From: Thelephora terrestris
Lineage: Eukaryota; Basidiomycota; Agaricomycetes; Thelephorales; Thelephoraceae
DNA: 64,000 nucleotides
Direction: 5' to 3'
NCBI GenBank assembly: GCA_015956445.1
Contig: WIUZ02000026.1
Location: 186,001-250,000 of the forward strand
The notes under the pieces were generated by a model. The model saw nothing but the letters and a program-made list of their open reading frames with translations, was not told where the DNA came from and did no database searches. This document shows positions 2,327 to 64,000 of the stretch, one piece after another. The stretch's first letter is position 1, and each line of letters begins with the position of its first letter. The position numbers were made by a program, and so were the translations under genes.

Positions 2327-2485
2327 CTGATCTGTGTAATTTAAGACGTATTATATTGTTGCCTTCATGTATGTCACTCTTCGACATTTAAAAATGGCCG
2401 TTCGATAGTCAGATTGATCGTAGCCGATGTGAGAACGATAATCGCAGTTAACCTGTGCATGCGCGATGAAATGAGTACAGTTTCA

Positions 2486-3213
2486 TCAAGCACCCCGTCC
2501 CCGACCCCGACCCCTGGTGGGACCGCCTCGTGTTTGTCCACCGCGCGCTAGAATGTGTTTTAAGTGAGCAGTTGTCATGGTTGGGTGACTTGGATATGGA
2601 TGTAAACGGACCTCGATGTGCGGGACCTCCTCGACCTGCGGTATTGACGTTGATGAGTTACCGTGGCCGCATGTACGCCGCAACAGACGCACCTCTGTTA
2701 CCAGCGCCGCTGACATGGGAGCCTCGTGCGCTCCTTCCGGCTTCCCTAGCCCTTGTCTGCTCGTCTTTGACGGAATCCAGTAAGCTGTCAGGTATCCGAA
2801 GATACTTGATCTATTCAAACCAAATCAACATCACGCAAAGAAAGAGAAAAAAACCACGGAGACGCACCGTGCTGCCTCGAATGTAACACTCTTTCAATTT
2901 CCAAAACCTATCACCGTCCGGGTTCGTCTGATAGACCTCTCGGAGGGTGATGTTCATGAAATTGTCACAGTTTACGAGATGACCGTTGAAAGTCTCGCCG
3001 TTCTTGAGTTCGACTAACTGCGGGGAGGGGGTGGTAGGACCTGTAGCGTTAATCAAGCTGATTCGCGGTTTGGGGGTGAGATTGGGAAGCGTTGGACTGG
3101 GGTTTTTACCATCGGTTTGTTTTGGGCCGCGTTTAGGAGAGAGAGTGGGAGCTGTTTGGAGATTGTGTGTTAGTGGGTGTGTTGTTTATGGGGTGTAAAG
3201 TTGGCGATACCAT
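2486..3213 (-). CDS. LSM4: U6 snRNA-associated Sm-like protein LSm4
   Basis: Subunit of the LSm2-8 ring (U6 snRNA 3' end, splicing) and the LSm1-7 ring (mRNA decapping). The Sm fold is clear: [19 protein letters not shown] (Sm1), then [13 protein letters not shown] continuing across an intron into IKYLRIPD (Sm2). The C-terminus is an RG/GGR-rich tail, as in other LSm4 proteins. Introns on the minus strand are 2867-2811, 2692-2636 and 2611-2548; the stop is at 2488-2486. The 5' end is not settled. The frame upstream of the Sm1 exon has no ATG, so a short first exon must be spliced on. The ATG at 3213-3211, directly followed by a GT, is a candidate one-codon exon. Confidence 0.9.
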
Positions 3214-3390
3214 CTTGAGTGGGGTTTCAGGCGAGAGGGACCGATGGAGGAGGGAGTGTCTCAGTGTGAAGCACCTTGAGTCCGGCACGTGATCGGTATT
3301 TCCTTCCGTTCCGCCACCACCGACCGACCAAAGTTGGGCACCAGGACTTGCTGGACGGCCGGGGGAATCAGTCGCGTTCTCTTGGCGGTC
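3214..3390. promoter_or_regulatory. Divergent intergenic region between LSM4 and the ERV2-like gene
   Basis: The two genes are transcribed away from each other, with only about 180-330 bp between start codons depending on the unresolved LSM4 start. I see no strong TATA box. Shared regulation is inference only. Confidence 0.35.
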
Positions 3391-45524: not shown

Positions 45525-48500
45525 TCATCTGTACCCACACCTTTGAAACCACCCACAGGCGTCTTTGGGAGTGACGGAAAAAACCGCGTCATGTATTGCC
45601 ACAAGAATCTCCTTTTCATTGCTGGTTGTCGTGTTATGCTCAAGTGTGGGCAAGCAGTGGCGAAAGTCGGCCTTGATTGCGGAGAATGCCAACTCGATTG
45701 GGTTATAATCTGGAGAGTAGGGGGGGAGAAATTCACATCGCATGCCCCTAAATAGATCCGAGTGAGTGACAGTAAGAGAATCTGGTGGCAGATTATTACC
45801 GTTCGTAAATCATCTTCGAGACGTCTCGAGATTTGTGGATCCGACAGTTGTCCATCACTACAACTGACTTCGGGCCAGGAAACTCATTCATCTCGTCCAG
45901 GAGATCGTGAATGAATTTTTTGAAGCGCTGTCCATCATAGGAGCCTTGAACAATATCCAGGGCAATGATCCCATCGAGTGTTAATGCTGGGAGAACTGAA
46001 TAACTGACGAAACGTCAATCAAACAAAAGTAATTTGACTAGTCACTCACCGCTTGCCCCTGCAGAGTAAAACTTTTGTCGACACACGCTGTCCCTTGCTT
46101 GCCCACGCATTCTTGCGGTGCGCGACATGGCGGTCAAAGGAAGTTTCGTCCGCGAAAACAAGTTGATCAATCGTGTACCGGCCCGACATACGGAGCACAT
46201 ATTCAGCTCGTTTGAAAGCCGAGCGTTCTGCCGCGACACGCGATGCCTAGGCCACAGTTTCATCCTCAGTAACAAGGGGGAAAAGATGGTAGTCACCTTC
46301 TTTAGGGTAAGACCATTTCGTCTGAGTGTTTCCCAAACTAACTTGCGAGAGACTGTGACCCCTAAGTTGATCGCAATTTGGGAGCTGAGATCTTTGAGGT
46401 AAACGTCGGGTGTTCTTGTTGAGCAGGTAGGGTATAATGCTATACTACTACATGGATACTCTAATCCTTACCTGAAGGGGAGATGCTTATAGGTGCTAGT
46501 GGGGGAGAGAGAGAGAGAAGCGATTGATTGATCTATCTACACATGAGGGGTATATATATCTATCTACTCTATTAGTGTCACAACTGTATAGCGTGACTGA
46601 TGCAGGGTCCGTGCGGCGGCTTAAGGCACGCGCGCGTCATACCGATCGATCGGGTCACTGATGTGACATCGTCCCTTCGGGTCGCCTATTCAGCGCTCTC
46701 CGGCATCGGCTCTCGCTTATAGCGGTGGAGCCGGTTGACCCGTTGCCGGGCACAGACCTCCGGTTCAACACTCCCCCTTACTAAGTACAGCTCCCTGTAT
46801 AACTTCATTGGTGGGAACTGGACTGTAGTAAGTTGGAGGTATGTGCTCAGAAGAATTCAAGGCCTAGGGCATCTCTGAATTTTCTGAGTTTGACGATCCC
46901 AAGGTTTTTTGTTAGGAGATTGTCAGGAACATGGTATTTTTAAACTTTTTATAACACACTCTTTCTTCGAACTCTTCTTACCACTTCTTATGTTTTGAAT
47001 GCTTCACACTCCTTATCCTTCACACCCATCATTCAAAACACACAAACGTGCATACATTCACGGCAATACGAAACAACTGGCTATACAATGCTTATACAAC
47101 GTCCTCAAAAGTCGACTCTATCTACGGCAGGTCTCGTGATCATCACCCTTCCATCTCGGAGATCGTAGTGCTGGCCTCTCCTCGCAAGGACCTCCCCGAA
47201 CATGGCGTCACCATCTTCGGCACTCAGCTGAACGACTAGTTCAAGCTGATAGGAAGAGATGCCTTCGAGCGGACCGATCAGCCTCCCAGATGTCACCGAA
47301 CTCTGGAACACCTGGTCCCACATCTCCATCACCGGGTGACTGCTCGGTAGCACTATCGACGTAGTCGACGAGAGACCCTCCGTCTCCCTCGTCGGACCCC
47401 TGGGTGGGATCCTGTCTTGCGAGTCTAAGCTGGTGGCGAAGCTGGATCTCTGACTCGACCTGTCGGTAGGGACGGTGGACCCGATAGCGGAACTCTCGTC
47501 CCCCATCTCGACCAGACTGGTCACCATCCAACTCAACTGGACGCGGATACGGGTTAGCCGAAGGAGCCATGCGATGAGCAAGGCGGCGTCGAGAGCGTTT
47601 ACAACGCTGCCCCTTGATCACCGGACGCACCTCAATGGCCCTCGGAACATCTTCGGCCCGGTCGACTTCCATGACCTCATCCTCGATCTTGACCAGCTGA
47701 CTGATCGGCTGCAACGGGCAGCGCCGACAGTTCTCCTTGTCGGACTCGGCCAACGTGGAAGCCGGAGCCGGAGTCGGGACGGGAACCAAGTTCTCTACCG
47801 GAGGCGTCGCATAGGACGACGGGTTAGGCGATGGGAGTACCACCTCGTCGGCGTACTCCAGCTCGAACGGAACGTCGGCAGTCCCCTGACCAACCAACTT
47901 CGGACCCTCCTTGCAGTTGCAGGTCTTATCCTGCAAGGACGCGACCTGCGCCGTCAATACCGCCACCACGTCCTCGAGCTGTTCCGTCTAGAAGAACCTC
48001 TCAGTCATTGCATAAACCTGCAAAGGCTGAAAGCACCTTTTCATCCCTTCTAGCCAGCGCTCCCTTGATGTTGTTGTCCCTGACCTTCAGCCCGGCGATC
48101 AACTCTTGATGGTTGGCGACCATAGCCTCCAACGCCTCATTCGTTCCCTGCTGGAAGGCAGCGAGAGTCTCCTTCATCTGAAGACCCTCCGCCGACAAAC
48201 GAAGGACGTCTGCCTTCGCCTCCTTCACTTTGCGCTCCAATCGTTCCACCTAGGCGTTTGGTTAATCGAGAGTCATACTCGATCATCCAGACTGAAAACC
48301 TACCCGGTTTTCCTCCCTCTCGAACGAGCGACCACAGCAGCGTCGTGGAAGCAGTGGCATGGCGGACAGCCCGAGGAACGGTTGCCCCGTGCTCCAACAG
48401 GTCCTGGTCATAGATCCCCCTTTGCAGGGTATACCAGAGCTCCTTCTTGATCGGATGCTCCAACTCCCCGAACCTACCCCTCATCTGGAAGATCACCTTC

Positions 48501-51500
48501 TCGGCGATCATAGACCGGACCCAGAGCTCATCGTCCCAGGTCAACCCCATCAAGTGAGGGATTGTCTCCCTGAGACGTTCGGCGTCCACCTTCTGCACGA
48601 CCTCCAAGATCTATTGGAACAAAGTTAGAATTAACATCAAAGGTTATTTCTAACTCCACCCCACCTGTTCATCGGTGGTGTAGGGAACCCCAGCCTCATT
48701 GGCATAGGTCTTTCGGGCGGCGGCACGACGGTCGATACGGGAGATGGTGGAGATACCGTTGGCGACTTTGTAGGTATGGTTGTTGGGGAAAGACATGTTT
48801 TGGTAAGATGATGGGGAAGTTGCTGGTGTTGCTGATCAAGGATGGCTCCAAGAAGACGTCCTTCTTATAGCCTAGATCGGTGATCCTTCACGTGACCTAC
48901 CTCGACGAACCTCATTGGTCCGGGTCACATCAACTTCCGCCCCTGTACCATCATCGTTGGCTTACTACATCAAGCTGACACCTCGGCCCGCGGGACGGCC
49001 TTGGAAGAACTTCGTTCCGGAACGCCTAGAACGCGCGCGCACTAAAAATAGGTCTCAAGACCCTGATGACCCCTTTATGACATCACGTACCCCTTTTCAC
49101 TGGGGGCAGACCCCTACTTATCCAGCAGGCAAATTGAGGGTTTTTTGAGAGTTTTTCAACAATTTACTCAGATTTTACCCAGTGGGTTAATTGTGAACAA
49201 ATTCAAAACTTACCCACCACTTTGCCCACACTTTGATCGGTGGGTAAGTTTTGAAATTGTTCTCAACAAGCTCATCAGTTTGCCCATGAGGTACTTCTTT
49301 GACAAAACTCTAAGAGTTCTTTCACAAATTGCACAAAATGTGTCCACCACATTATCTGAGCCACTCATCCAGAGTTCTTTCACAAATTACCCAGAAATTT
49401 GCCCACAACATGTTCAATCATGTGCACAGTGGGATTGTTGAGAGTTTGTCAAGAAACTGAGCATATCAAGAGTTTGTTGTGATTACATCAAAGAAAACCT
49501 GGTGAATATGTTACTGAGTATGTTGTGAGCAAGTTTTGAAAGAACTCTTGATGAGTGGCTCAGAGCATGTGGTGGGCACATTTGGTGCAATTTGTGAAAG
49601 AACCCTTGGGGTTTGTCAAAGAAGTACCTCATGGGCTAACTGATGGGCTTGCTCAGAACAAATTCAAAACTTACCCACCGATCAAAGTGTGGGCAAAGTG
49701 GTGGGTAAGTTTTGAATTTGTTCACAATTAACCCACTGGGTAAAATCTGAGTAAATTGTTGAAAAACTCTCAAAAAACCCTCAATTTGCCTGCCGGATAA
49801 GTAGGGGTCTGCCCCCAGTGTTTATGACCCCTCATGACTTTACAATTACGATCAACCCTGGACCCTGATCACACACGTGGACAGTCACATCACAGTCTCC
49901 TAACCGGAGGAAGGACTCGCCGCTATTCGGAAACATCGCCTTAGGATCCTTCTGGTTAGCCCAGCGCATGTGGAGTAGCCGTTAGCGTGAAACGCCGGCG
50001 AATCTGTAATCCCTCATGTCCCATGAGTCTAGGCCTGCGCTCCTCATGTTCGGACGCACGTTGAGGTTGCCACTAGTCCGTGATGCTGTTACCGCCTACA
50101 GACAACAAGGGATGCTGTATGGTCTCTATCTTTGGCCTCTCCAAAGGAAGCATCCAAGAAGATTCTCACCTAGCCCTTGGGTGTGATCCCCAGGTACGAA
50201 CTTTCATGACCTCATGCCCCTCTTGCTCTTAGGACTAGTGTTATCTTTACCCCTATGTTTCATGCGGACATTCGTTATCTTTTATGCAATCCTTCACACG
50301 CTAGTAAGGCCCTTTGTCCTTTGTTCTCCCACGCGTCATTCTTGTTCGCTTCCCTTACTTAGCGTTCTCACACTCCTTATCTCCCTTTGTTCAGACTTGA
50401 TAAGGGTATATTAGGGTATTGACGTCATGGCCACTCCTTTAGTATAAGTAGCAACTATGGCTGTATCGTAATACCTTAGTTTTGTTACCTCAGGAAATCC
50501 TCTGCCCTTCTCAGCCCAGTTGCAGTTAAGGACAAGTCAGAGTTTCTTGTTTGATCCAAGACACCCCATCTGCTCTCCCTCCCGCTCTGCGCGTCGACTG
50601 CGCCTCGTAACTATAGAACCTCAGCGTTCATATTAGAACACCTCGAGCGTCCAGTCGATCACCTGGTGGAGTCATCAATCCTGTTGTGGAGATAAACCCT
50701 TGTATGTTAAACCGAACGAAGTACGGTTTAGGTTGGGTTTCTCCTTAGGATTTCGACCTGACTTGTAGTGACCTCGGACAACCTACCGGAAGAATAGAGA
50801 CGTGATCGTTCTCTCACAAGCTAGTTGGACTAGTGAGTACTCTGCGGAGTCGGCTCAGTGCACTGGTAGTTGTTGGGGTGGAGTGGCCCTGACAGAGATC
50901 CGCGGGATTGTCATCTCCGGGAATGAAATACACTACCACGCGTCCATCATTGATGACTTCGCGAATATAATGGTAGCGGATATCGATGTGCTTCGACCTC
51001 TTTTCAGTAACCGGATTTGAGGCGATAAAGATCGAGCCTTGGTTATCTCCGCAGATTGGGATGGCTTTAAGGTCATAGCCGAGCTCCCCCAGAAGGGTAT
51101 GCATCCAGACCACTTGGCGGCTACAATCGGAGAGCGCCATGTATTCAGCCTCAGTGGACGACAGTGCGATAGTTTTTTGCGCTCTTGAGGTCCATGAGAT
51201 GAGCCCTTTTGCCATCCGGACAAAGTATCCACTTTGGGACCGTCTCTGAGTGGGATCTGAAGCCCAGTCTGAGTCGGTACAGGCTGAGATACCTTCCCGT
51301 GAGTCTCCGTCGTATGTTAATCGGTATTTTGAAGTCCCGATTAAGTAGCGGCAGATATACAGCGCTTTTTCGACGTGCTCTTTCGACGGGTTTGCAGCAT
51401 ATTGCGCAAGTTTAGTAACCGCGAAGGCGATATCTGGTCGGGTACCCAGCGTGGGGTGTAGTAAGGAACCAATTATGGTTTGGAACCTGCTTCGTCTTTC

Positions 51501-54500
51501 CGGGCATGCTACCTCTGTCGACGGAGTCGGTACATACCCGGCCGGGAGAGGGGTTGCTGCAACCTTTGCATTTTGCATTCCACATCGCTCAAGGACCGTT
51601 TGGAGGTAAGTGCATTGATCTATAGAGATCTTGCTGCCATGTCTGGTGATCCTCATACGTAGGAAATCGGTTAAGTCCCCTAAATCCCTGGTTTCCCATA
51701 TCTTCATAAACTCCCCCTTGAGCCGCTCCGTAAGCGCTGTGTGGGGGCCAGTAAAGATGGCATCGTCTACGTATATTAACGCAATTACGAATCTTCCATC
51801 TTTATCCTGGTAAATGAAGATCCCGGCATCTGAGCTCAAGGACTTGAATCCAAGCTTTTCCATAGACTGTTTCAGGGCTCGCCACCATGCGAGCCCGGCT
51901 TGTTTCAGTCCGTAGAGGGCACGCTTTAAGCGGAGAACATGAGTCTCCTTTCCTGGAGCTACGAATCCCTCTGGTTGTTCCATGTAGATTTCCTTGTCAA
52001 GTTCGCTGTATAGGTACGCATTTCGAACATCAAGCCCTTTAAGGGCCCATCCTCCGAGGGCGGCCATTGCGAATATTAGGCGCACTGTCTCGAATCGGAC
52101 GACGGGGGAGAACACGGCATCGTAGTCCATTCCCTCAACCTGTGAGAAGCCTTTCGCTACTAGGCGGGCTTTCTTGCGACCATCTGGTTTCTGGTCGAAT
52201 ACCCAGCGGTTTTTAATAACCTTGCGGCCTCAGGGTCGCTCTACCAGGTCGTATACATTACGCTTGCGAAGAGCTTCCAACTCTTCATTGCAAGCTGTCC
52301 TCCATTCCTTGAGTTCAGCCTGTGGTAGTGTGGCGATGTCTCGGTATTTCCATTCTTTTGGAGTTTTTTCGCCAGCGGTTGGTGAGACAGCTTTTGAAAT
52401 TAAGAGGTTTTGGAGTTCTACTCCCCCTTCCCGGCATAGCCTAGCCAGAAGTGCGTCTGTGTCTTCCTCAGGGGTGGTGAACCCTGATGGCTCAATGGAT
52501 TGCTCCACCTCGTCTTCAGACTCTGACGCTTCTTCTATTTCTTCCTCAGCGGAGGATTCTCTCTCTGGAAGGGGCTGAGAGCTAGGTCCGGGAACTGGTA
52601 TTGCTCCTGAACTTCGCCCACGCCTAGGTGCTACGGAGAAATCTCCAACAACCTTCTTCCAATCCTTCATACGCCGAGTAGACTTTATTATTTCTACCGG
52701 ATGTTTACTGCTGTAAACATTGCCGGGCTTGGCCGGTACTTTCCGCTCGCGCCCAGACTTCCGTTGTTTGATGGGTGACGGAGGCATGATTGGAGCGGGT
52801 GGTGCATCCTCAGGGTCAGAATCGGAGCTAGAGCTGGGGGTAGGTGATCTTGGCGGCTCCGGAGTGGGCGCTCTAGGTTGCACTGGTGTTTGTGACCGTG
52901 GTTCGGGCTCAATAGCACGTTCCTTGCCTTTTGAGGAAGGTTTGGGGGTAGGTTTAGGACGCGCTGAGGGTGCTGCGTCATCTCCCTCTTGTCCTCCTGG
53001 AAGGGGACACTGGCAGTCACCGTCCTTGTGACAGTGATGACTGGGTAGGGGTGGCGCAGTAGATTGCAGCCGTGTGTTGCGCCGTGTACTGGCAGTTGGG
53101 CACTTAGGGAAATGCAACTCATCGAAGGTGGCCTGAGCAGCGGAGAAGATAATATTGTTAGGTCCGCGCATAAAGATCCATCCCTTTCCTCCTGGGTGAG
53201 TACCCAGGTAGGTCATTAATTCTGATCGGGGCGCGAGTTTATTTAACCGTACTTCTTCCAGGATGAAGACGTAGGCTCCGCAGCCAAGAACCCGAAGATG
53301 ATCAACCGAAGGCTTACTTCCATTCAGTAGTTGAAATGGAGTCTGCCAATTCAGGCGACGATTTGGCGTTCGGTTGTAAACGTGAGTTGCGTGGTCAAGG
53401 GCGAATTCCCACCAAGACTGAGGGAGGCAAGCCTGCAATCTCATGGATTCTGCCTTATCCATCAATGTTCGAATGATCCTTTCCGCGCGGCCATTTTGTT
53501 GGTGTGCATGCGGGATAGATTGGAGGATCTCGATCCCCTTTTCCTTGAGCATTGTCGTAAATGTTAGGGACGTGTATTCCCCCCCGGCATCGGACATCCA
53601 TCGGCGTACTCTTTTCTGGTATTTGGTCTCAACCATAGCCAGGAAGTGCCTGGTAGCCACGAGTGCAGCGTCTTTAGTGCGCAAATTCATGGTCCAGGCA
53701 TGTGAGGTATAGTCGTCATAGAAGACGATTGAGTACTTGTACTTGCGATAGGATTCAATGGGGAAGGTTTTTAGATCCGAGTGGATCAGCTCGAAAGGGG
53801 CAGCTGCTCTGGTGCTGGATGGGGGAAAGGTTTTATTTGTCATCTTTCCTTGCGCGCATCCAGTGCAGAGGTGCTCTCTTGGGATTTCAACGTGAGGAAA
53901 GTCCTTGATATGTTTCCCGGCCTTTTGAATCACTTCTTTGGAGGGGTGAGCCAGTCGGCGGTGCATGATTTCGAAATCTGCACTGTATATGGTTTCAATT
54001 CTTGCAGCAGTAAGTTGTGCTCCGAGGAGAGTTCTGATGATGTAAATACTATCATCCTCGGTTCGAGGGTGGAAGGTGAGAAACTCAGTTTCTTCTTCGT
54101 AGAGTGAGATTTCGCGAGCACTCCCCCTCGAGAAGAGTCCGCTTTTAAGGAACTGGCCAAGGGATAATAGCCTATGGGATATCTCAGGAACAAAGTAGAC
54201 AGGGTTTAGTCTGACAGCCTTCTCGTCTATGTAGAGGATTACTGTTCCTTTACCGATGATTGTTGTGAAAGTAGTCGCAGTCCTTAGAGGAATGGGTTCG
54301 ATTTCCTCGTATTCAACAAAATCATTCATATCGAAGGTAAAGTGCCGGGATGCTCCAGAGTCGAGCATCCACACAGCCTCAGTTTCACTCAGGGCGGACA
54401 AGGTCAAACAAGTGTATTCGGAAGCTACTACTGAAGACCTAGACTTATCTTCAGTTGCTGTGGAGTCGTTAGCATTGTTACTCAACACTTGAATACTTGT

Positions 54501-57073
54501 TTCATACCTTCCGCCAGACGGACCGGCAACCGACACGGGGGATCCGACAACCATCTCATCGCCCGACCATCCCAGACTCACCTCGTCCTCGCTTGGCGGA
54601 GTACGCGCCTTCTTGCGGGGTCGAGGGTCGACCGTCTGTTCGCAGGAGCGTTCCAGCCGTTTGAGAGTCTCAATCGTGGGCGTGACGCCTAGTCGTGCTG
54701 AGAGATCTCTTGCCTTCTGAACGGAGGGGTAGAAGGAAGGGGTCCCTGCACCTTCACGATGGACCGGGAGGGAGCGTAGGGGAAAGGCTGCCATGGAGGC
54801 GAAGCTGTAGTCGGTGACCGACATTCCGGAGCCGGATGCAACCGGAGGTTGAGGGGAGAAAGGAGGTACGGGAGCGGGTACGGGGGGTTCCTCTGCCTGC
54901 TGTACCTGTTGTTGGAACCTTCCTCGGCCTCCTCTGGCTCCTCGACGGTTGCGTCCACGTCCACCTTGGCCCTGGGGTTGATCCCCACTGTACTGCTGCT
55001 GCTGCTGGAAATTGGGATTCCCAGGGGTGCGTTGTACATTGGACAGCCTATTTGCCTGCTGTCTGCCCTTGCCACTGGACGTTTGTTCCCATGCGAGGAT
55101 GATGGTCCGCCGTAGACCGTCCACATCGAGTTTGCTCATATCCTCCGTTTGGCACACCGCCTGAGGGATGTTGTTGTAAGACGGGGGGAGTTTTGACATG
55201 AGCATCATCGTTTTGATGAAGGGAGGGACAATGGTGTCCTTTCCACTGCTTTCAAGGCGACTGATGTGGGATAGGAATTTGTCTACAGCGGCTGTAGGGT
55301 CCTGACCCTCGAGGATCCTGACCTCCATTGCATGTTTGAACTCCAGGTAGATACCGATGATGCCTGGCTTGCCATAATCCTTCTCGATTTCCTTGAGAAG
55401 TTTGGCAGCGTTGACTTCTGCTCGGTACTTGTATTGGATGTCGGGGGCAAGGCGTAGGAGGATGTTGCCAAGGGCCTTGTCGTTTGCTTCGGCCCATGTG
55501 TCTACTTCGTCCTGGTTATCGGCACCTTCCTGCGCCGGAGTCAATAGGTTGTTCTCGGCGTCATAGGTAGCTTCGATCTTTGGCCATACCTCAAGGGTAG
55601 GTTCCTTCTTTTGGATCGTCCTCCATTGTCCCTGCGACATCAAGTAAGAGCGCATAGGTCCGGCCCATTGTTGGTAGTTGGGGCCGGCGAGAACGGGGAC
55701 GAGGGAGGTAAGTTGAGAAGACATTTGTTTTTGGGAGGTGGAAGTCCCACAACCAATAACAAGTTTCATCAGTTATCGTACACTTTTCTTTTTATGCCAG
55801 AAGCAAGTGAAAGGGGAAGAAGCAGTCTTTCCTCTCAGGGATTACTTTGGTGAGAAGCTTTTATCGCATATTGCCTCATTCCACACCGTCGGCAGATGTT
55901 AATCGACTACCCTCCCCTATGGGGTCTACGAATGTGTGTTGTGCTCAGCTTTGGCAAGTCACTGTTTCATCCCCTCTTGGGGTTTTGACTTTTTTGTTCT
56001 GAGTCCCCTTCCTACGCAGTGGATAGGCGAAGGTTTATTGACATGTCTAAAAGAAGTACTGCTTAGGGACGCGACGTATGACTCGTCGTGGTCCGCCCTC
56101 TTGGGCGCGCTTTGTCATCTCCTCTAGTACGTATCTGATACGCATTCTGAGGTTATCCCCTTTCCCTAGGTCCAGCGCTCTAAGCTCCTTTGGAGGTGGC
56201 GTTTGGTCGATGAGGGTAGGTTTGTTTTCCATGTCGTTTTGACGAGGGGTAAGCCTACAAATCAAAAGGAACATGGTGAATGATAGCGCTTTCTAAGCAG
56301 GTAGACAGTCAAGCCTGGATAGCGCAGTGGCAGCCATCAAGGCGCACTAAGGTAAGATTAGAGCCTGTTCACAGCGCAGCCATAGAGGCGCAGCTTGGAA
56401 CACAGGGCATAGCCCGGGCTCATAACCTGTTGAGCAGGTAGGGTATAATGCTATACTACTACATGGATACTCTAATCCTTACCTGAAGGGGAGATGCTTA
56501 TAGGTGCTAGTGGGGGAGAGAGAGAGAGAAGCGATTGATTGATCTATCTACACATGAGGGGTATATATATCTATCTACTCTATTAGCGTCACAACTGTAT
56601 AGCGTGACTGATGCAGGGTCCGTGCGGCGGCTTAAGGCACGCGCGCGTCATACCGATCGATCGGGTCACTGATGTGACATCGTCCCTTCGGGTCGCCTAT
56701 TCAGCGCTCTCCGGCATCGGCTCTCGCTTATAGCGGTGGAGCCGGTTGACCCGTTGCCGGGCACAGACCTCCGGTTCAACAGTTCTTCGCACACACTCAA
56801 CTACGTACTAGGACCGAACTTCGTTGAGGGCAGCTCTGTGAGAGTTAAAAAGAGACTCACTGCTTCTTCATTTTGCGAGAGAAAACGATGCCTCCCAGTC
56901 CTCCTCCCTGCCTGCTCAGGTTCAACGGATCCAGTGGTTTCCCAACATTTTCTGATGCGGTAAATTTGACGGCGGCTTACGCCTGTCAGGCTCTCAATTT
57001 CGGAGACAGAGTGAAGGTCGCCCAAGGCCAGGATGGTGCGCTTAAGATCAGCGGATATTTTCTTGCCTCTCAT
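45525..57073 (-). CDS. Tc1/mariner (DDE_3-type) transposase, split by an insertion
   Basis: The N-terminal helix-turn-helix lies right of the copia: MRGKKISADLKRTILALGD, VSEIESLTGVSRRQIYRI. The remainder lies left of it: YLKDLSSQIAINLGVTVSRK with VWETLRRNGLTLKK; RAEYVLRMSGRYTIDQLVFA with DETSF (first Asp); VVVMDNCRIHKS (second Asp); and LPPYSPDYNPIELAFSAIK (Glu). At least three short GT-AG introns are needed: after GLTLKK, after the KVLLCRGKR block, and before MRCEFLPPYS. The exon border just before the copia insertion could not be settled. Apart from the insertion, the left part reads as if it were functional until recently. Confidence 0.75.
46417..46770 (-). repeat. 3' LTR of the copia element
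   Basis: 354-bp direct repeat of 56428-56781, ends TGTTGAGC...TTCAACA. It includes a GA-rich run, a TATATATATC stretch and a GC-rich half with CGATCGATCG. It is the 3' LTR because the coding strand is minus. Confidence 0.93.
47241..48796 (-). CDS. Coiled-coil protein of element X (unknown family)
   Basis: About four exons: MSFPNNHTYKVANGISTISR and onward to YTTDEQ; then ILEVVQKVDAERLRETIPHL through a helical block (WVRSMIAEKVIFQMRGRFGE); a coiled coil VERLERKVKEAKADVLRLSA through VRDNNIKGALARRDEKV; then TEQLEDVVAVLTAQVASLQD, CNCKEG, an acidic Pro-rich region (ENLVPVPTPAPAS, EDEVMEVDRAEDV) and a basic Arg-rich C-terminus (KGQRCKRSRRRLAHRM) ending at 47241. Intron 2 has two possible donors. 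It has no domain known to me. Its architecture (N-terminal helical block, coiled coil, Cys cluster, acidic DEV-E block, basic or polar tail) parallels the Y protein. Confidence 0.65.
49098..49820. mobile_element. CACTG-ended hairpin MITE with long inverted repeats
   Basis: 723 bp, ends CACTGGGGGCAGACCCC...GGGGTCTGCCCCCAGTG. The two arms (about 49098-49382 and 49536-49820) are inverted repeats of about 285 bp, with only scattered differences, around a ~150 bp loop. TSD TTT at 49095-49097 and 49821-49823. CACTR ends and a 3-bp duplication point to the CACTA (CMC/EnSpm) group. It has no coding capacity. It is absent from the otherwise matching position in the truncated X copy at about 58750, which confirms an insertion into X. 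Confidence 0.85.
50895..52130 (-). CDS. Copia reverse transcriptase/RNase H coding part (fossil)
   Basis: Reverse transcriptase blocks FSPVVRFETVRLIFAMAALG, DVRNAYLYSELDKEIYM and the catalytic YVDDAIF; RNase H blocks TDSDWASDPTQRRSQSGYF and SSTEAEYMALSDCSRQ. Element X is inserted at the far end, so the open frame runs on into X sequence beyond 50895. The few codons beyond that point belong to X, not to the copia protein. Confidence 0.92.
52230..55769 (-). CDS. Copia gag-protease-integrase coding part (fossil)
   Basis: An open stretch of 1,179 codons. In order: a Gag domain (SQLTSLVPVLAGPNYQQWAG and a glutamine-rich tail), the aspartic protease motif DSGASRHF at about residue 470, a gag-pre-integrase HLC-type zinc region (MHRRLAHPSKEVIQKAG, LCTGCAQGKM), then the integrase core (HSDLKTFPIESYRK, SDAGGEYTS, QQNGRAERIIRTL) and a Pro/Ser-rich linker before the reverse transcriptase. 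Part of the fossil copia element. Confidence 0.92.
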   Translation of the reverse strand: MKLVIGCGTSTSQKQMSSQLTSLVPVLAGPNYQQWAGPMRSYLMSQGQWRTIQKKEPTLEVWPKIEATYDAENNLLTPAQEGADNQDEVDTWAEANDKALGNILLRLAPDIQYKYRAEVNAAKLLKEIEKDYGKPGIIGIYLEFKHAMEVRILEGQDPTAAVDKFLSHISRLESSGKDTIVPPFIKTMMLMSKLPPSYNNIPQAVCQTEDMSKLDVDGLRRTIILAWEQTSSGKGRQQANRLSNVQRTPGNPNFQQQQQYSGDQPQGQGGRGRNRRGARGGRGRFQQQVQQAEEPPVPAPVPPFSPQPPVASGSGMSVTDYSFASMAAFPLRSLPVHREGAGTPSFYPSVQKARDLSARLGVTPTIETLKRLERSCEQTVDPRPRKKARTPPSEDEVSLGWSGDEMVVGSPVSVAGPSGGRYETSIQVLSNNANDSTATEDKSRSSVVASEYTCLTLSALSETEAVWMLDSGASRHFTFDMNDFVEYEEIEPIPLRTATTFTTIIGKGTVILYIDEKAVRLNPVYFVPEISHRLLSLGQFLKSGLFSRGSAREISLYEEETEFLTFHPRTEDDSIYIIRTLLGAQLTAARIETIYSADFEIMHRRLAHPSKEVIQKAGKHIKDFPHVEIPREHLCTGCAQGKMTNKTFPPSSTRAAAPFELIHSDLKTFPIESYRKYKYSIVFYDDYTSHAWTMNLRTKDAALVATRHFLAMVETKYQKRVRRWMSDAGGEYTSLTFTTMLKEKGIEILQSIPHAHQQNGRAERIIRTLMDKAESMRLQACLPQSWWEFALDHATHVYNRTPNRRLNWQTPFQLLNGSKPSVDHLRVLGCGAYVFILEEVRLNKLAPRSELMTYLGTHPGGKGWIFMRGPNNIIFSAAQATFDELHFPKCPTASTRRNTRLQSTAPPLPSHHCHKDGDCQCPLPGGQEGDDAAPSARPKPTPKPSSKGKERAIEPEPRSQTPVQPRAPTPEPPRSPTPSSSSDSDPEDAPPAPIMPPSPIKQRKSGRERKVPAKPGNVYSSKHPVEIIKSTRRMKDWKKVVGDFSVAPRRGRSSGAIPVPGPSSQPLPERESSAEEEIEEASESEDEVEQSIEPSGFTTPEEDTDALLARLCREGGVELQNLLISKAVSPTAGEKTPKEWKYRDIATLPQAELKEWRTACNEELEALRKRNVYDLVERP
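56405..56427 (-). other. Putative primer-binding site of the copia element (initiator tRNA-Met anticodon region)
   Basis: Directly inside the 5' LTR the plus strand reads GGGCTCATAACC, which is the anticodon arm sequence of eukaryotic initiator tRNA-Met. The element strand is therefore complementary to an internal, not 3'-terminal, part of that tRNA, as known for Drosophila copia, which primes from a cleaved half-tRNA. The match is recalled from memory, not searched. Confidence 0.6.
56428..56781 (-). repeat. 5' LTR of the copia element
   Basis: Direct repeat of 46417-46770, with about one difference by eye. It is the 5' LTR because the coding strand is minus. The TSD GTTCT follows at 56782-56786. 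Confidence 0.93.
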
Positions 57074-57687: not shown

Positions 57688-59105
57688 TGTCAGGGCCACT
57701 CTACCCCAACAACTACCAGTGCACTGAGCCGACTCCGCAGAGTACTCACTAGTCCAACTAGCTTGTGAGAGAACGATCACGTCTCTATTCTTCCAGTAGG
57801 TTGTCCGAGGTCACTACAAGTCAGGTCGAAATCCTAAAGAGAAACCCAACCTAAACCGTACTTCGTTCGGTTTAACAAGCAAGGGTTTATCTCTACAACA
57901 GGATTGATGACTCCACCAGGTGATCGACTGGACGCTCGAGGTGTTCTAATGTGAACGCTGGGGTTCTATAGTTACGAGGCGCAGTTGACGCGCAGAGCGG
58001 GAGGGAGAGCAGATGGGGGTGTCTTGGATCAAACAAGAAACTCTGACTTGTCCTTAACTGCAACTGGGCTGAGAAGGGCAGAGGATTTCCTGAGGTAACA
58101 AAACTAAGGTACTACAATACAGCCACAGTTGCTACTTATACTAAAGGAGTGGCCATGACGTCAATACCCTAATATACCCTTATCAAGTCCGAACAAAGGG
58201 AGATAGGGAGTGTGAGAACACTAAGTAAGGGAAGCGAACAAATATGACGCATGGGAAGATAAAGGACAAAGGGCCTTACTAGCGTGTGAAGGATTGCATA
58301 AAAGATAAGGAATGTCCGCATGAAACATAGGGGTAAGATAACACTAGTCCTAAAAGAAAGAGGGGCATGGGGTCATGAAAGTTCGTTCCTGGGGATCACA
58401 CCCAAGGGTCAGGTGGCAATCTCCCTTTACATAGTTGTACCAGCGGATTCGGGAGTAGAGCCATGCAAACATCCCTTGTTGTCTGTAGGCGGTAACAGCA
58501 TCACGGAATAGTGGCAACCTCAACGTACGTCCGAACATGAGGAGGTCGGGCCTAGACTCATGGGACATGAGGGATTACAGATTCGCCGGCGTTTCACGCT
58601 AACGGCTACTCCACATGCGCTGGGCTAAACAAAAGGAGTCTAAGGCACTCCTTCCGAATAACGGCGATTCCTTCCTCCGGTTAGGAGACTGTGATGTGAC
58701 TGTCCACGTGTGTGATCAGGGTCCAGGGTTGGTCGTAATCGTAAAGTCATGAGGGGTCGTAAAAAGGGGTTCGTGATGTCATAAAGGGGTCATCAGGGTC
58801 TTGAGACCTATTTTTAGTGCACGTGCGTTCTAGGCGTTCCGGAACGAAGTTCTTCCAAGGCCGTCCCGTGGGCCGAGGTGTCAGCTTGATGTAGTAAGCC
58901 AACGATGATGGTACAGGGGCGGAAGTTGATGTGACCCGGACCAATGAGGTTCGTCGAGGTAGGTCACGTGAAGGATCACCGATCTAGGCTATAAGAAGGA
59001 CGTCTTCTTGGAGCCATCCTTGATCAGCAACACCAGCAACTTCCCCATCATCTTACCAAAACATGTCTTTCCCCAACAACCATACCTACCAAGTCGCCCA
59101 CGGCA
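57688..59105 (+). mobile_element. Truncated second copy of element X, opposite orientation
   Basis: It begins TGTCAGGGCCACTC at 57688 and follows the X leader through the start of the X gene (ATG at 59063, MSFPNNHTY), then loses similarity at about 59105. The first ~160 bases differ from X at about three positions. No matching right terminus or target duplication was found, so this is a truncated copy. Together with X it forms a large inverted repeat around the copia coding region. Confidence 0.8.
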
Positions 59106-60999
59106 CTAATGGTTGTCCCCATCGTTTGAAAAGCAAGTGATAACTGCCCTCCCGCGTTGTGCAGTGTGGGGCGATAAATTGTTCCCAGGCCCTTTTCAAC
59201 GACAATTATTGATTGCCGGTGGGGAACCGTGTTGCCAAACCGGGCAGGTCCTCTCGCCCTGCCGGCGTCCACTCTCGTGCTTTCCCGCAGGCAGGCGAAC
59301 CCCCTCCCTCGCTGTAGATAGCAATAATTACACTACATATATCCTAATCTAGGGTTCCTTCGTTGCCTTTTGCAACGAGAGACGTGTTGCAGCCGTGCGA
59401 AATATCGACTTCGCAGGTGATGGCGCGATGCCTCCCTACCGTGAGCGCCAAGCTCCCCGACGCGAACCTCCGCGCCGATTTCCAGTCGGGAAATCCTCCT
59501 CCTCCTCCCTTGGGGCTTTTCCCGGGGTTCGCGGACGTACCGTGACCGTGAGAAGGAGAGTTCTTCGTCCCTATTGGCTCACGTTCACCCAATGTTTCCG
59601 ATCGGCGCCCACGACGCTGCAGTACAACTTCTTGTTTCGTCGTCTTCCCCTCCTCCCGATCCACTCAGCCACATCGTCTGCCCTCCCGTCTACTCAACCT
59701 GGCATATTGCAGCTCGTGGGACGCCCGATTCTGTTCCCGATCTACTGATCCGTGTGGATCGTTTGACGGACGCCTCCCCCTTTCCCGCTCGGTAATCCAC
59801 CCTTCCTCATTCGTTATCTCACTTATCGCATTCTTCGTCGAGCTGGTCACGTCCCAACTTAGCGTTTCGCTTTCCTTTCTACTTATTTACTTCCTTGTCG
59901 CACTGCTCGATGACGATGCCGTCTCCTTCTATTCCGTCCCACCTTCCTCCTGCCGCGCCTTTGATAGGTCGACAGACCCCTCTGGATTTGTGCTTCCGTC
60001 TTTCCCAGACCGGTAATCTTCTTTCCCCTCAACCGTTTTCCTGTTTATTGTGTCCCCCAGATCCTTCGCTTCTGGTTGGTCGGCGGATGCTGACTTCTCC
60101 CGACCCGCCCGCATTGCCCCTCCATCGTCGACAACCACCCTCCCACCTTCCCCACTGGCCAATCGTCAATCATTGGTTGATAGGTACCGTCCCGCTTACT
60201 ACCCGCTTCTCCCTCCTTTCAGGTTTGGCGAGAAAATTCCTCTCGCATTTACCGGCGGCCACGCTTCTCGCGTTTGTGTTTCCTAGATGGACACGCTTCT
60301 CGCTCGGGCCGTTCCCCATAGATGGCGGCAATACCCCCCTTCTATTCGTTTCTTAGTTATCGCGTCTGCCTTTGACAATATTCTCCTGATTGGCTACGAA
60401 TGTCGTACGTTTGCATGCCACCCGGCTCTGACACGCTCCTCCCTCCCTCAGATTTGCAGCTTGCCTCCTCCATTTGGTCACCCACATGGCGCGTCTTCAT
60501 CCCCCTCGCCCATTCATTGTGTTTGCCTGGCTCCCACGCTTTTAATTGGTGGATGGTCCCTCCTGGATCGGTAATCGTCCTCCCGCCACTCACTTTTGAT
60601 CGGTCAACGGATTCTCGCCCATTCCCGACCCACCCACCCCTCTGGCTCGGAGGACCGGAAACGGAACTCGAGATTCCCACCGTTTCACCGCCCGTCGAAG
60701 CAACCCTTGCCGTGCGGCGCGCACGGTCCGCTTTCCGCCTCGGCGATCCACTCAGCGCTCCAGGGTGTTGTACTTCTGATTCAACAACAGGCGTCAGCCT
60801 AGTTTGGCTATACACCTCCTCCTGTTCGTTTGCTGACCGCGTCATCCAGCAGTCACGGCTCTCCCCTTCCCAACCTACTCCCATCCTCTCCTCAGCACCG
60901 CAATCCAACTTCCCCTCATTTCCAGCACCTCTGGTCAACGGATACCTACGGTCCACATTTCTATGCCGAAATCAGCTGTCTACTGCCCCCGCCTCACTC
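59106..60999. other. Pyrimidine-rich gene-poor sequence
   Basis: From about 59350 the plus strand is strongly C/T-biased (runs like CCTCCTCCTCCC, TTCCCCTCCTCCC). The open frames here are Pro/Ser/Leu-rich artefacts of composition and have no domains. No gene is supported. Confidence 0.6.
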
Positions 61000-61130
61000 A
61001 CCCACTAACATATCCCGTCGCTTGGACGGATCGATCTTTGGGGTGAGCTCCTTCCTTTCTGGTACGCCTATCGGCCCTCTTGTGAAACACCAATTCAATG
61101 TGTCCTTCCTGCGCTTCTCAGCCACAATCC

Positions 61131-61232
61131 ACGTCCCTCGATGATCTCATTTTCCTCGACAACCACGTCCCTCGATGGTCTCGTTTTCCTCGACAACCAC
61201 GTCCCTCGATGATCTCGTTTTCCTCGGCAACC
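61131..61232. repeat. 34-bp tandem repeat, three units
   Basis: ACGTCCCTCGATGATCTC starts at 61131, and again, with small changes, at 61165 and 61199, an exact 34-bp period. It lies inside the pyrimidine-rich array. Confidence 0.85.
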
Positions 61233-62622
61233 ATGTCCTCACCCCTTGCCGTGTTTTGTGTTGAACATGTTTCCCCTCGTGCCCTTTCCTTCATCAAAAC
61301 TCCCTTATCGCATCCCCGGTGAGTTCGTCTTCGGCAGCTGCTACATCTCACCGATATAACTCCGTATCAGGTGTTTTTCGCCTCTTTCCCTTCCCAGTCC
61401 ATCTGTTGATCACCCCGATCGTTTTCTATGCGCGGGTATAATTCCTTCCGTGCATGGCTGACTCACGCCATCGTTCGATAGCCACATTCCCGTTCGCAAC
61501 CCATCCTCCTGACTTCCCAACGCACCCCATCTGCTTTTGAACTCGCTCCACACTGCTCGCTTACAGATCCCCGTGTCTCGGTGTAGATAGATCCTGTACC
61601 GGGTATGCTCAGCACAGAATCCATTCATTTGTACCTGCCGACTCTGCATTTCATCCGGCAGCACCCGGAATCTCCATCCCCAGCTCTGGCCTAAATCGTC
61701 ATCACCATCCCTTACACTGCGACGACTTGTTGCAGATCGTCCGATTGCGTGGGAAACAACTGTATAAGTTTATATGCCCTCGCTGAGCCGCCTCCAGCGA
61801 GCCGCTCAGCGGCCTACCCCACACATTCCAGGTTCAACCCAGTCCCACCCGTTCTCCGCTCCTAAGCAGCCAGCCAACCGTGTCGTCGCTGCATCTACTC
61901 GTTTTCACGTTCTGCGGTGTGCGTATCCCGCTCTTTTCTCGGCCCTTTCGTGAGTACCCGTCCAGCGGTCCCCACTTCTCATCGACACACCTATATGCCA
62001 GCCGTCTTCCAGCTCCCCGTATCCCTCTCCATCGGTTCTCGTGGCCGAACCATCCGTGTGATCGCCTCGAATTCCTAATGTGTGTGGATTCCGTTCCGCA
62101 CCGCTCTTTCCTTCCGCTTGCGTACATGCGTCCAACTTTCCACCCCTGCCTTTGTGGTTCACTTATTGGGTTGCTTGTGAGGTGCCAATTCACTACTCTT
62201 TCTCGTGCTCTTTCCAGACAACCTTACGTCTATCAACGTCTCATGTTTTTCTGACAACCACGCCCCCGCCTCGTCACGCGCCACTCCTTGTCGCATCCCA
62301 TGAGCACACTTCTTCTAGGCCCTTCCGCAATCTTACTCCGTCTGTGTTGGAAATACCCCTATCACATCCTTTGAGTATTTGCTTAGTATCCCCCACCTCT
62401 CACTGACATACCTCTGTTACGCGTTACAATTCCCTCGTTTCCCTCTCTGATTCTCGTGGCCGAACAATCCGTGCATCCGCCTCGATCCCTTCTTCATGTG
62501 TGTAGGTACAATTCCTTCCCAATTTCTCCCTCGGCTTGCCGTCCTACTTCCCCTCATTCCCCGGTTGGGCAATCTACCCTTTGCCTTGTTCGTGTTCCCA
62601 CCCATCTTCCGGACGATCCAAC

Positions 62623-62821
62623 CCTTCCGGTCAGTTTATTCCTCTTCTGGTTCACCCATCGTGTTACTTGCGAGACGCCCATCTAATCTTTCTTGTCGTG
62701 TCTTTCGCAGAAGCGTTACGTCCATCAATGTCTCCTTCTCTTCCGATAAGCACATCCCGCCCCGTTCAATCATTGTCGGGTCTCGCGGTGAATATGTCCT
62801 CAGGTTCTCTTGCAGCTGAAC
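62623..62821. repeat. ~198-bp near-identical direct duplication, copy 1
   Basis: From CCGGTCAGTTTATTCCTC to TGCAGCTGAAC, repeated at 63103-63300 with only about three differences, although the surrounding array units are far more diverged. This suggests recent local duplication or gene conversion. Confidence 0.85.
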
Positions 62822-63102
62822 CCCTCCCGAAAACGCCTTTACCACAGCTTTTGTGAGTACCTGTTCGACAACTCCCACCTCCCGCCAGCGCCCCATACCC
62901 ATCTCCTCTGGTTCCCCTGGCCAAACCATCTGTGCGCTCGCCTCGATCTCTCCTCCATGCGTGTAAGCCCCATTCCTTCCCGCCCTCTCTCTCTCAGCTT
63001 GCCATCTTACTTTTTCCTGTTTGATCCGCTTCCGTTCCCCTGGTTGGCAAATCTACCCCTCGCCTGGTTCGTTTTCCCACTCATCCCCCAGCTGGTCTAA
63101 TC

Positions 63103-63300
63103 TTTCCGGTCAGTTTATTCCTCTTCTGGTTCACCCATCGTGTTACTTGCGAGACGCCCATCTAATCTTTCTTGTCGTGTCTTTCGCAGAAGCGTTACGT
63201 CCATCAATGTCTCCTTCTCTTCCGATAAGCACATCCCGCCCTGTTCAATCATTGTCGGGTCTCGCGGTGAATATGTTCTCAGGTTCTCTCGCAGCTGAAC
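63103..63300. repeat. ~198-bp near-identical direct duplication, copy 2
   Basis: Second copy of 62623-62821, offset 480 bp. Confidence 0.85.
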
Positions 63301-63320
63301 TCCCCCCCGTCGTCAAAAAC

Positions 63321-64000
63321 GCCTTTACCATAGCTTTCGTGAGTACCTCACTGACTCCATTCCAGTCGCTATCCAGCCCCCGTGTCTGTGCCCTCCGATC
63401 TTCTCGGCCGTTTCACTCCTTCTCGGGGAACAACCAACTCTCGTTGTCGTTTAATAGCTACATCTCATTGTCCGCCGTTTATTCCCGAGCCCTTATGTAT
63501 GTTTAGCCTACAATCGTTTGTGTAAATACCCCGACAGAACCTCTCTGTCGAACTACAACATTCGGAATTTGTATCCCTAACCTATCATCACTGTGCTCAG
63601 CGAAGGCTTGTTCCGGATCGTCCGATACTTTTGTGAGAGATGAAAGTACGAGAGGGCGTCTAGTATTACAAATTTGCCATTCAAGTCTGCAATACCCCTC
63701 CAACAGGCTCCCTACCCCTCAACGTTCAACCACAACTTCCTGTAGCCCATCCAGCACAACCTTTCCAAATCTGATCTAATTTCGTTAGCTCAATCCCCAT
63801 ACGTCTCGCAACAGGGAACTCCAAGCTGGCCACTCATGCCTTATCATCGGCCGCCCAGGATTAGCCCGATGTCGTCGTCCTGCACATCGACGTTCACCGT
63901 CGTGAAATTTCCACCAGAAGATGCAGCTCCCTTGCCCGGTCATCGCCACTATCGTGCCCTTCCTAGTTATCCCAGGTGTCTTCTCAAGATCTCGACGCTA
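63321..64000. other. Pyrimidine-rich sequence to the window edge, no gene seen
   Basis: Composition returns toward normal after about 63700. No frame with recognisable content. Confidence 0.5.

Follow-up and report, generated by a model that had tools for sequence, protein, structure and literature searches.

Organization of the locus

The window analyzed in this study is a 64,000-nucleotide stretch of the genome of Thelephora terrestris (assembly GCA_015956445.1, contig WIUZ02000026.1, positions 186,001 to 250,000 of the forward strand), and coordinates are given as positions within it. Its main subject is an insertion, element X, which an earlier note, prepared from the sequence alone, had described as a recently mobile unit of no familiar class. 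We conclude with high confidence that X is a solo long terminal repeat (LTR) of a Ty3-type retrotransposon and, jointly, that a conserved gene lies in antisense orientation within its U3 region. The features of X are:

46921..50894, LTR sense on the plus strand: element X, a solo LTR, the same unit as the 5' and 3' LTRs of full-length Ty3 elements
46916..46920, no strand: left target site duplication, GAGAT, 5 bp
50895..50899, no strand: right target site duplication, GAGAT, 5 bp
48864..48870, minus strand: TATA motif CTATAAG of the antisense gene, about 70 bp upstream of the ATG
48665..48796, minus strand: exon 1, ATG at 48796
48304..48610, minus strand: exon 2, with a one-base frameshift near its 3' end in the window copy relative to other copies
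48037..48249, minus strand: exon 3, within the coiled-coil part (long helix in the structure model)
47631..47987, minus strand: exon 4 of the antisense gene
47537..47630, minus strand: intron 4, possibly optional (open retained frame, third-position bias)
47105..47536, minus strand: exon 5, stop codon at 47105-47107
50442..50451, plus strand: GTATAAGTAG, sense TATA-type promoter motif of the LTR, present in 53 of 54 LTR copies
50477..50488, plus strand: TAGTTTTGTTAC, putative start of R, 12 nt complementary to the primer binding site (PBS), present in 52 of 54 copies

The TG...CA ends, inverted repeat and 5-bp duplication reported earlier were exact: X begins with TGTCAGG at 46921 and ends with CCTGACA at 50894, and GAGAT is duplicated on each side. 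It is a lone LTR, the internal domain being absent, and measures 3251 bp after subtraction of a nested foldback element. As the earlier note had stated, there is no LTR pair at the locus, the only other LTR of the family being partial and in the opposite orientation (57688-59103).

X is the LTR of a Ty3/gypsy chromovirus

The whole genome (40.6 Mb, 60 contigs) was scanned for the termini of X, a search which the earlier note had proposed. This revealed 402 LTR starts (25-base pattern, up to 2 mismatches) and 408 LTR ends (29-base pattern, up to 2 mismatches), while the reversed control patterns gave 0 matches in both cases. The same note had asked whether X occurs as direct pairs around an internal domain, the outcome it had set in advance as speaking against a novel element, and such pairs were found as both LTRs of a gag-pol element. 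The entry point was a match to the integrase family PF00665 on contig C1, in 6 kb of sequence bounded by two direct X copies. In the C1 element, the two LTRs (3301/3301 bp) differ by 2 mismatches (99.94% identity) and the outer duplication is TAATC, and in a second full-length element, on contig C12, the LTRs (3324/3324 bp) differ by 1 mismatch (99.97% identity) and the outer duplication is CCATC. The LTR-internal-LTR anatomy with an outer 5-bp duplication was thus present in both of the two elements checked, out of 8 internal copies. Between the C1 and C12 elements, the LTRs are 93.6% and the internal domains 97% identical.

The full-length element is about 12.6 kb long (3.3-kb LTR, 6.0-kb gag-pol and 3.3-kb LTR). 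In the C1 copy, Gag consists of 484 amino acids (aa) with a zinc knuckle (zf-CCHC), and Pol of 1272 aa with Pfam matches, in order, to RVP protease, RVT_1, RNase H, H2C2, rve, SH3_Tf2-1 and Chromo. A search with Gag gave 6 matches, from environmental sources. As in chromoviruses, the LTRs have TG...CA ends, a polypurine tract (PPT, AGGAAGAGGATAA) abuts the 3' LTR and a PBS adjoins the 5' LTR. In the C1 copy, the gap between the pol stop and the 3' LTR is 20 bp.

Close copies of the internal domain number 8 in the genome (in one of them the first 234 of the 3901 bases searched are missing), and there are 3 distant ones (69-71% identity). Since these 8 close internal domains stand against about 400 LTR ends, nearly all X LTRs must be solo. 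Two sets of copies were compared. The first was drawn from the best 40 of 884 first-look candidates, i.e. the copies most like X; it contained 41 LTR starts, of which 4 without a paired end were dropped, leaving 37 paired copies, and these, together with the window copy and the two full-length LTRs, formed a 40-copy alignment (copies L045, L047 and L048, with large insertions, were left out). The second comprised 14 later copies, hand-picked by position and by a start-end distance near 3.3 kb from listings that showed about 100 of the 402 starts and about 100 of the 408 ends. Because large-insert copies were omitted and the spacing was set near 3.3 kb, copies of broken length are under-represented in both sets. 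All 54 copies were found via the LTR sequence, so the sample covers genes inside LTRs, any copies elsewhere lying beyond it. An exact 5-bp duplication flanks 28 of the 37 paired copies of the first set and 13 of the 14 in the later sample.

Several candidates for further LTR pairs were rejected. Of the direct X pairs, one on contig C58 (460 bp apart) includes a copy with its own 5-bp duplication, and in another on C12 (2.2 kb apart) both copies have one. Copy L040 was also ruled out as one half of a complete element, since no internal-domain match lies in the 5.5 kb up to the next LTRs. On contig C23 (1033864-1047074), two of the 8 close internal domains lie in the same orientation 9.31 kb apart, which suggests an LTR-internal-LTR-internal-LTR tandem of the kind that unequal recombination usually gives. 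Nesting of one X copy in another is frequent and occurs in both orientations (L013, L024, L025, L028 and L044), and on either side of one copy (L031) there is a 15-bp direct repeat, CTTTCAGGCCCTTCC, in place of 5 bp.

Structure and integrity of the antisense gene

The multi-exon gene noticed earlier is present, though not in sense with X as had been assumed: the plus direction of the window's X is that of gag-pol in the full-length elements, of the promoter motif in the LTR and of the putative self-priming site, and the coiled-coil gene is on the opposite strand. Its five exons lie wholly in U3, upstream of the TATA/R block. The 18-base sequence GGCTATAAGAAGGACGTC, the longer form of its putative promoter motif, occurs on the gene strand in 51 of 54 copies, and CTATAAG is found somewhere on that strand in all 54.

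Among the 40 similarity-found copies, 38, the two full-length elements among them, have an intact reading frame and every one of the eight splice sites, as do 12 of the 14 chosen by position; the total is 50 of 54, and no copy has an in-frame stop (0/54). The four non-intact copies are the window copy, with its one-base frameshift, L023 and L062, each with a 2-base gap, and L056, in which the changes are multiples of three (42 bases inserted, 6 missing).

The antisense gene is under strong purifying selection

For exons 1-4, the mean pairwise ratio of nonsynonymous to synonymous divergence (dN/dS) among the 40 copies is 0.096 (dN 0.034, dS 0.353), with values of 0.095 for the 14 later copies and 0.099 for all 54. 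When the frame was shifted as a control, dN/dS rose to 1.51 and 2.81 (40 copies) and to 1.59 and 2.74 (14 copies). The two full-length elements (C1 and C12) differ in exons 1-4 by a dS of 0.18 and a dN of only 0.004 (dN/dS 0.021). Among the 54 copies, the mean pairwise distance is 0.064, 0.035 and 0.20 at codon positions 1, 2 and 3, respectively, and 0.18, 0.064 and 0.31 in introns 1, 2 and 3; the most conserved blocks are the R/U5 region (0.030), the sense TATA (0.030) and the gene promoter (0.022). The antisense gene is under strong purifying selection, and this pattern indicates that its protein is in use. For the same reason X is not an ordinary long LTR, which is what the earlier note had expected of a unit paired around gag-pol; the pairing was there, the ordinariness was not.

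Changes seen in one copy only have a ratio of nonsynonymous to synonymous changes (N/S) of 0.385, compared with 0.131 for shared changes, and a hand estimate from these counts puts post-insertion change at about 0.2% per site. Signs of young insertion are the differences within the two LTR pairs (0.03-0.06%) and between the LTRs of the copia element that received X in the window (0.28%). Nearest-neighbour identity among copies has a median of only about 95% (range 92.6-98.9%) despite these recent-looking insertions, because the copies are mosaics. At common biallelic sites in the 40 copies, linkage (r2) is 0.23 for sites within 10 bp of each other and about 0.04 for those more than 60 bp apart, a decay matched by 0 of 500 position shuffles; in the 54 copies it starts at 0.22 and drops to about 0.05 at distances over 120 bp. 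Either template switching or gene conversion could have shuffled the copies.

A protein with a predicted long coiled coil

Relatives of the X protein form 71 clusters with 257 member sequences, all from T. terrestris (7996 candidates scored), and the best matches, annotated as Thelephora terrestris, reach 95% identity. A profile search with 32 members likewise returned no named species beyond T. terrestris among 7994 candidates scored, although remoter relatives could be missed. The wider homology search that the earlier note had called for therefore yielded no relative in another species among the candidates scored, and otherwise weak Pfam matches, mostly to coiled-coil-type families; the best (E 0.00085) is to PspA/IM30, which is matched by 14 of the 32 members. 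A sequence search of the PDB gave a best E-value of only 0.65. In accordance with the earlier observation, neither the X protein nor its 32 annotated relatives matched reverse transcriptase, integrase, transposase or recombinase families in Pfam, the search being made with the protein frame of the gene. There was also no Pfam match to bZIP in the window protein (E up to 1) or in the 32 members (E up to 0.1).

In the AlphaFold model, a long helix spans residues 124-243 (confident at about 160-230 only), the middle is disordered and the C-terminus forms a small alpha-beta unit which is doubtful. The predicted product of the gene is a long coiled coil in which the middle is disordered and a small C-terminal domain is doubtful. 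Since the structure model is low in confidence, the role proposed for the protein below rests on analogy.

Two protein forms may be produced. The frame of intron 4 continues that of exon 4 and its variation is concentrated in third positions; over its 31 codons, dN/dS was calculated as 0.17 and 0.16. A form retaining this intron would comprise 465 aa and end at 47241-47243, and it is full length in 42 of 50 copies. Past that stop, the spliced frame of exon 5 has a dN/dS of 0.22 (40 copies) and 0.14 (14 copies). Both forms occur among the annotated models (P0001 retained, P0018 spliced). We infer that there are two protein forms with a dual-coded stretch in exon 5; a plainer alternative, weaker constraint on the shared stretch, also fits.

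Probable self-priming, retention of introns and a proposed life cycle

Both full-length elements read GAGTAACAAAACTACC right after the 5' LTR, and 12 nt of it are complementary to TAGTTTTGTTAC, which is located 35 bp past the TATA motif that starts at 50442. Judged from these sequences, the element probably primes reverse transcription from the 5' end of its own RNA, in a Tf1-like manner.

The following course of events is proposed. A recently active Ty3/gypsy chromovirus of about 12.6 kb entered a young copia element, creating the GAGAT duplication. Recombination between its two long LTRs, the standard route to solo LTRs, would then have deleted gag-pol and left one LTR. As the genomic RNA would be the opposite strand to the gene, its introns would stay unspliced and survive each cycle, and every new insertion would bring two copies of the gene, of which a solo LTR would retain one. 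The paradox raised by the earlier note, that a gene moved through a sense RNA should lose its introns, disappears, because the introns lie on the wrong strand of the genomic RNA and are unspliceable there. Movement of X as DNA or through an antisense RNA, which had been suggested instead, is not needed, given paired LTRs with gag-pol and a gene in antisense. The remaining suggestion of that note, a giant solo LTR carrying a host-like gene, was right as to the solo LTR; a host homologue was not found among the candidates scored.

Several observations weigh against parts of this picture. The antisense gene is out of frame in the window copy itself, and the antisense transcript, its splicing and the sense start are predictions. 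The retained frame stops early in 8 of 50 copies, and the dual-frame stretch of exon 5 is weakly constrained (dN/dS 0.49 in the spliced and 0.46 in the retained frame). The AlphaFold model has a mean pLDDT of 45, i.e. low confidence overall. The 12-nt complement is not overwhelming alone, as 2 of 300 shuffled versions of the PBS also find one of that length somewhere in the LTR (and none a longer one), and it is for this reason that the place of the complement next to the TATA motif matters to the self-priming argument. By a simple test, 9 of the 37 paired copies have no exact 5-bp duplication; one of them, L029, has a tandem 14-bp duplication of its own LTR start with a 5-bp duplication outside it. 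Finally, we infer solo formation from the anatomy and the excess of solo LTRs rather than from direct observation.

Alternative explanations and possible roles

Selection could also act at the level of the host, which would keep the gene as a domesticated or co-operating family of several hundred members. The gene is intact in 50 of 54 copies though nearly all LTRs are solo, even the one-copy-only changes are constrained (N/S 0.385), and the 257 annotated T. terrestris sequences in 71 clusters would agree with such a family. However, constraint is weaker on private than on shared changes (0.385 vs 0.131), as would be expected if selection operates in the replicating pool and lapses after insertion, and we consider selection at the host level improbable.

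A further alternative is that X moves alone as a 3.3-kb unit, either as a DNA transposon or as single-LTR cDNA, the copies with gag-pol being secondary. The number of LTR ends (about 400, against 8 close internal domains) would be in line with this, and the small post-insertion change (about 0.2% per site) would demand fast solo formation if X were an LTR. Nevertheless, paired LTRs of 99.94% and 99.97% identity with a PBS, a PPT and outer duplications are the standard product of an LTR retrotransposon, no transposase or recombinase was matched by the X protein or its relatives, and frequent recombination is expected between LTRs of 3.3 kb; LTR length has been linked to the ratio of solo LTRs (PMC7251063; the statements cited here and below come from parts of the papers named). 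Independent movement of X is very unlikely, and a DNA transposon or other novel integrated element was rejected once paired LTRs with gag-pol had been found.

Slightly less credible still is the view that the antisense gene is an inert passenger, a recently captured host gene that is intact through youth alone. The gene has no known function, and the two full-length LTR pairs checked are near-identical, hence young insertions, but the copies differ by a dS of 0.35-0.40 at a dN/dS near 0.10, and the full-length elements by a dS of 0.18 but a dN of 0.004. Third positions and introns 1 and 3 (not intron 2) are, moreover, far more variable than coding positions 1 and 2, and the two protein searches (7996 and 7994 candidates scored) found no host homologue. 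That constraint on the sense RNA or protein, the sense RNA running through U3 of the 3' LTR, incidentally produces the protein-like pattern of the minus strand can practically be dismissed, given that this pattern follows the phase of five exons with GT..AG introns on that strand and that the two other forward frames give dN/dS of 1.5-1.6 and 2.7-2.8 (only gene-strand frames were scored).

For the antisense protein, the likeliest role, put at about an even chance by analogy with the antisense proteins of deltaretroviruses, is an accessory or regulatory one exerted in trans on the element. A bolder idea, which we regard as rather unlikely, is that the LTR itself is the selected gene carrier and gag-pol its delivery vehicle: the antisense protein, supplied in trans from hundreds of solo LTRs, would serve copy-number control of the same element or self-immunity against it, or would be a selfish trait with two protein forms, and solo formation would be a strategy and not decay.

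Comparison with known systems

The sag gene of mouse mammary tumour virus (MMTV) is in the sense orientation. Like the X gene, it is a coding gene in U3 (mainly so in the case of sag), which is thus kept by solo LTRs, whereas the X gene is antisense, with four introns and its own promoter motif; the two are set apart here by description and not by sequence comparison. Of 527 sag contigs, 490 had no match to other retroviral genes, and solo LTRs keep sag (PMC4667437). In HTLV-1 (HBZ) and HTLV-2 to -4 (APH), antisense genes are spliced and use an LTR promoter, and HBZ has spliced and unspliced RNA forms and encodes a bZIP protein (PMC10186651). The X gene resembles HBZ/APH in being antisense to gag-pol, and it has a putative promoter motif within the LTR (18-base form in 51 of 54 copies); in contrast to HBZ, its coding sequence is entirely within the LTR, so both LTRs as well as solo LTRs carry the gene, and its product has no bZIP match.

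Among fungal elements, the Boty-like elements of Botrytis have an antisense gene, brtn, located internally with gag-pol (PMC7264820, PMC8365987, PMC4227169). As far as the consulted parts of these papers go, they are similar to the X family as fungal chromodomain elements with an extra antisense gene, which in X instead lies inside the LTR. The plant Ty3 elements Grande, RIRE2 and Retand have antisense open reading frames (ORFs) of obscure role between pol and the 3' LTR, and matches to Smc and Mis12 domains are reported for some Retand ORFs (PMC7264820, PMC11963269). The X gene is not in this gap, which in the C1 copy measures the 20 bp given above, and the plant ORFs would be lost on solo-LTR formation. 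LTR retrotransposons with antisense genes have been on record for years, the function of these genes not being known (PMC7264820). The X family is like Tf1 and Tj1 in its gag, its order of protease, reverse transcriptase, RNase H and integrase, its chromodomain, SH3_Tf2-1 and a PBS complementary to the putative 5' end of the mRNA; both of these elements self-prime reverse transcription (PMC4600332). This likeness is by domains and PBS and not by a reverse transcriptase tree, and the X family differs in its 3.3-kb LTR with a complete antisense gene in U3.

In the literature searched, which included few subscription papers and had Repbase outside its scope, no description came to light of a retrotransposon LTR that wholly contains a spliced antisense gene, and none of the X element in T. 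terrestris. In a paper on mycorrhizal genomes, Gypsy elements are reported to be abundant in Basidiomycota, and the part of its text examined does not mention X (PMC7550596). The class of X, an LTR-encoded gene, is a known one, and the cargo is the interesting part. With the gene wholly inside the LTR, about 400 LTRs of one small genome can carry it, and many natural variants (selected, intron-keeping and recombining) are available for asking what such antisense genes do. It also illustrates a route by which intron-containing genes may be spread by retrotransposons, namely on the opposite strand inside an LTR, where insertions and solo LTRs keep the gene. A practical consequence is that 257 annotated 'hypothetical protein' sequences are relatives of an LTR gene, which calls for caution in gene-family counts.

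The host copia element and other insertions

The remaining features of the locus are:

46417..56781, minus strand: copia element that received X, 354-bp LTRs, duplication GTTCT (copia identity and strand from reading the sequence)
49098..49820: nested foldback (palindromic) element, 723 bp, foreign to X, ends CACTGGGGGCA...TGCCCCCAGTG, 3-bp duplication TTT on both sides
57688..59103, minus strand: second, partial LTR of the X family (X positions 1836-3251 only)

The reported insertion of X into a copia element whose own LTRs differ at about one site was confirmed, 46417-46770 and 56428-56781 differing at 1 of 354 sites. Another X LTR, with the duplication GCCCC, is situated in a copia-like stretch (L048, 1-121 and 4292-4451) about 93% identical to that of the window, so this copia family was struck by X at least 2 times.

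The foldback element, which the earlier note had not recognized as separate from X, is absent from the same place in the other aligned copies. Its halves are reverse complements of each other (arms with 94.5% identity over 289 bp), and its hairpin has a predicted energy of -338.9 kcal/mol compared with a mean of -88.9 for 20 shuffles (z -50.5). A family of such elements, sharing CACTGGGGGCA ends and flanked by duplications of 3 bp (TTT, TAT), entered X copies both in the window and in L048 (1131-1970), the arms of the latter being 92.6% identical over 367 bp. Inserted in a further X copy (L047, 731-4544) is a near-perfect palindrome of 3.8 kb, which has 96.9% identity with its reverse complement and whose ends differ from those of the CACTGGGGGCA type.

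The partial LTR breaks off abruptly within its antisense gene, about 40 bases into exon 1. Beside it lies a pyrimidine-rich region of about 4 kb (59104-63500, 62-68% C+T) with short direct repeats.

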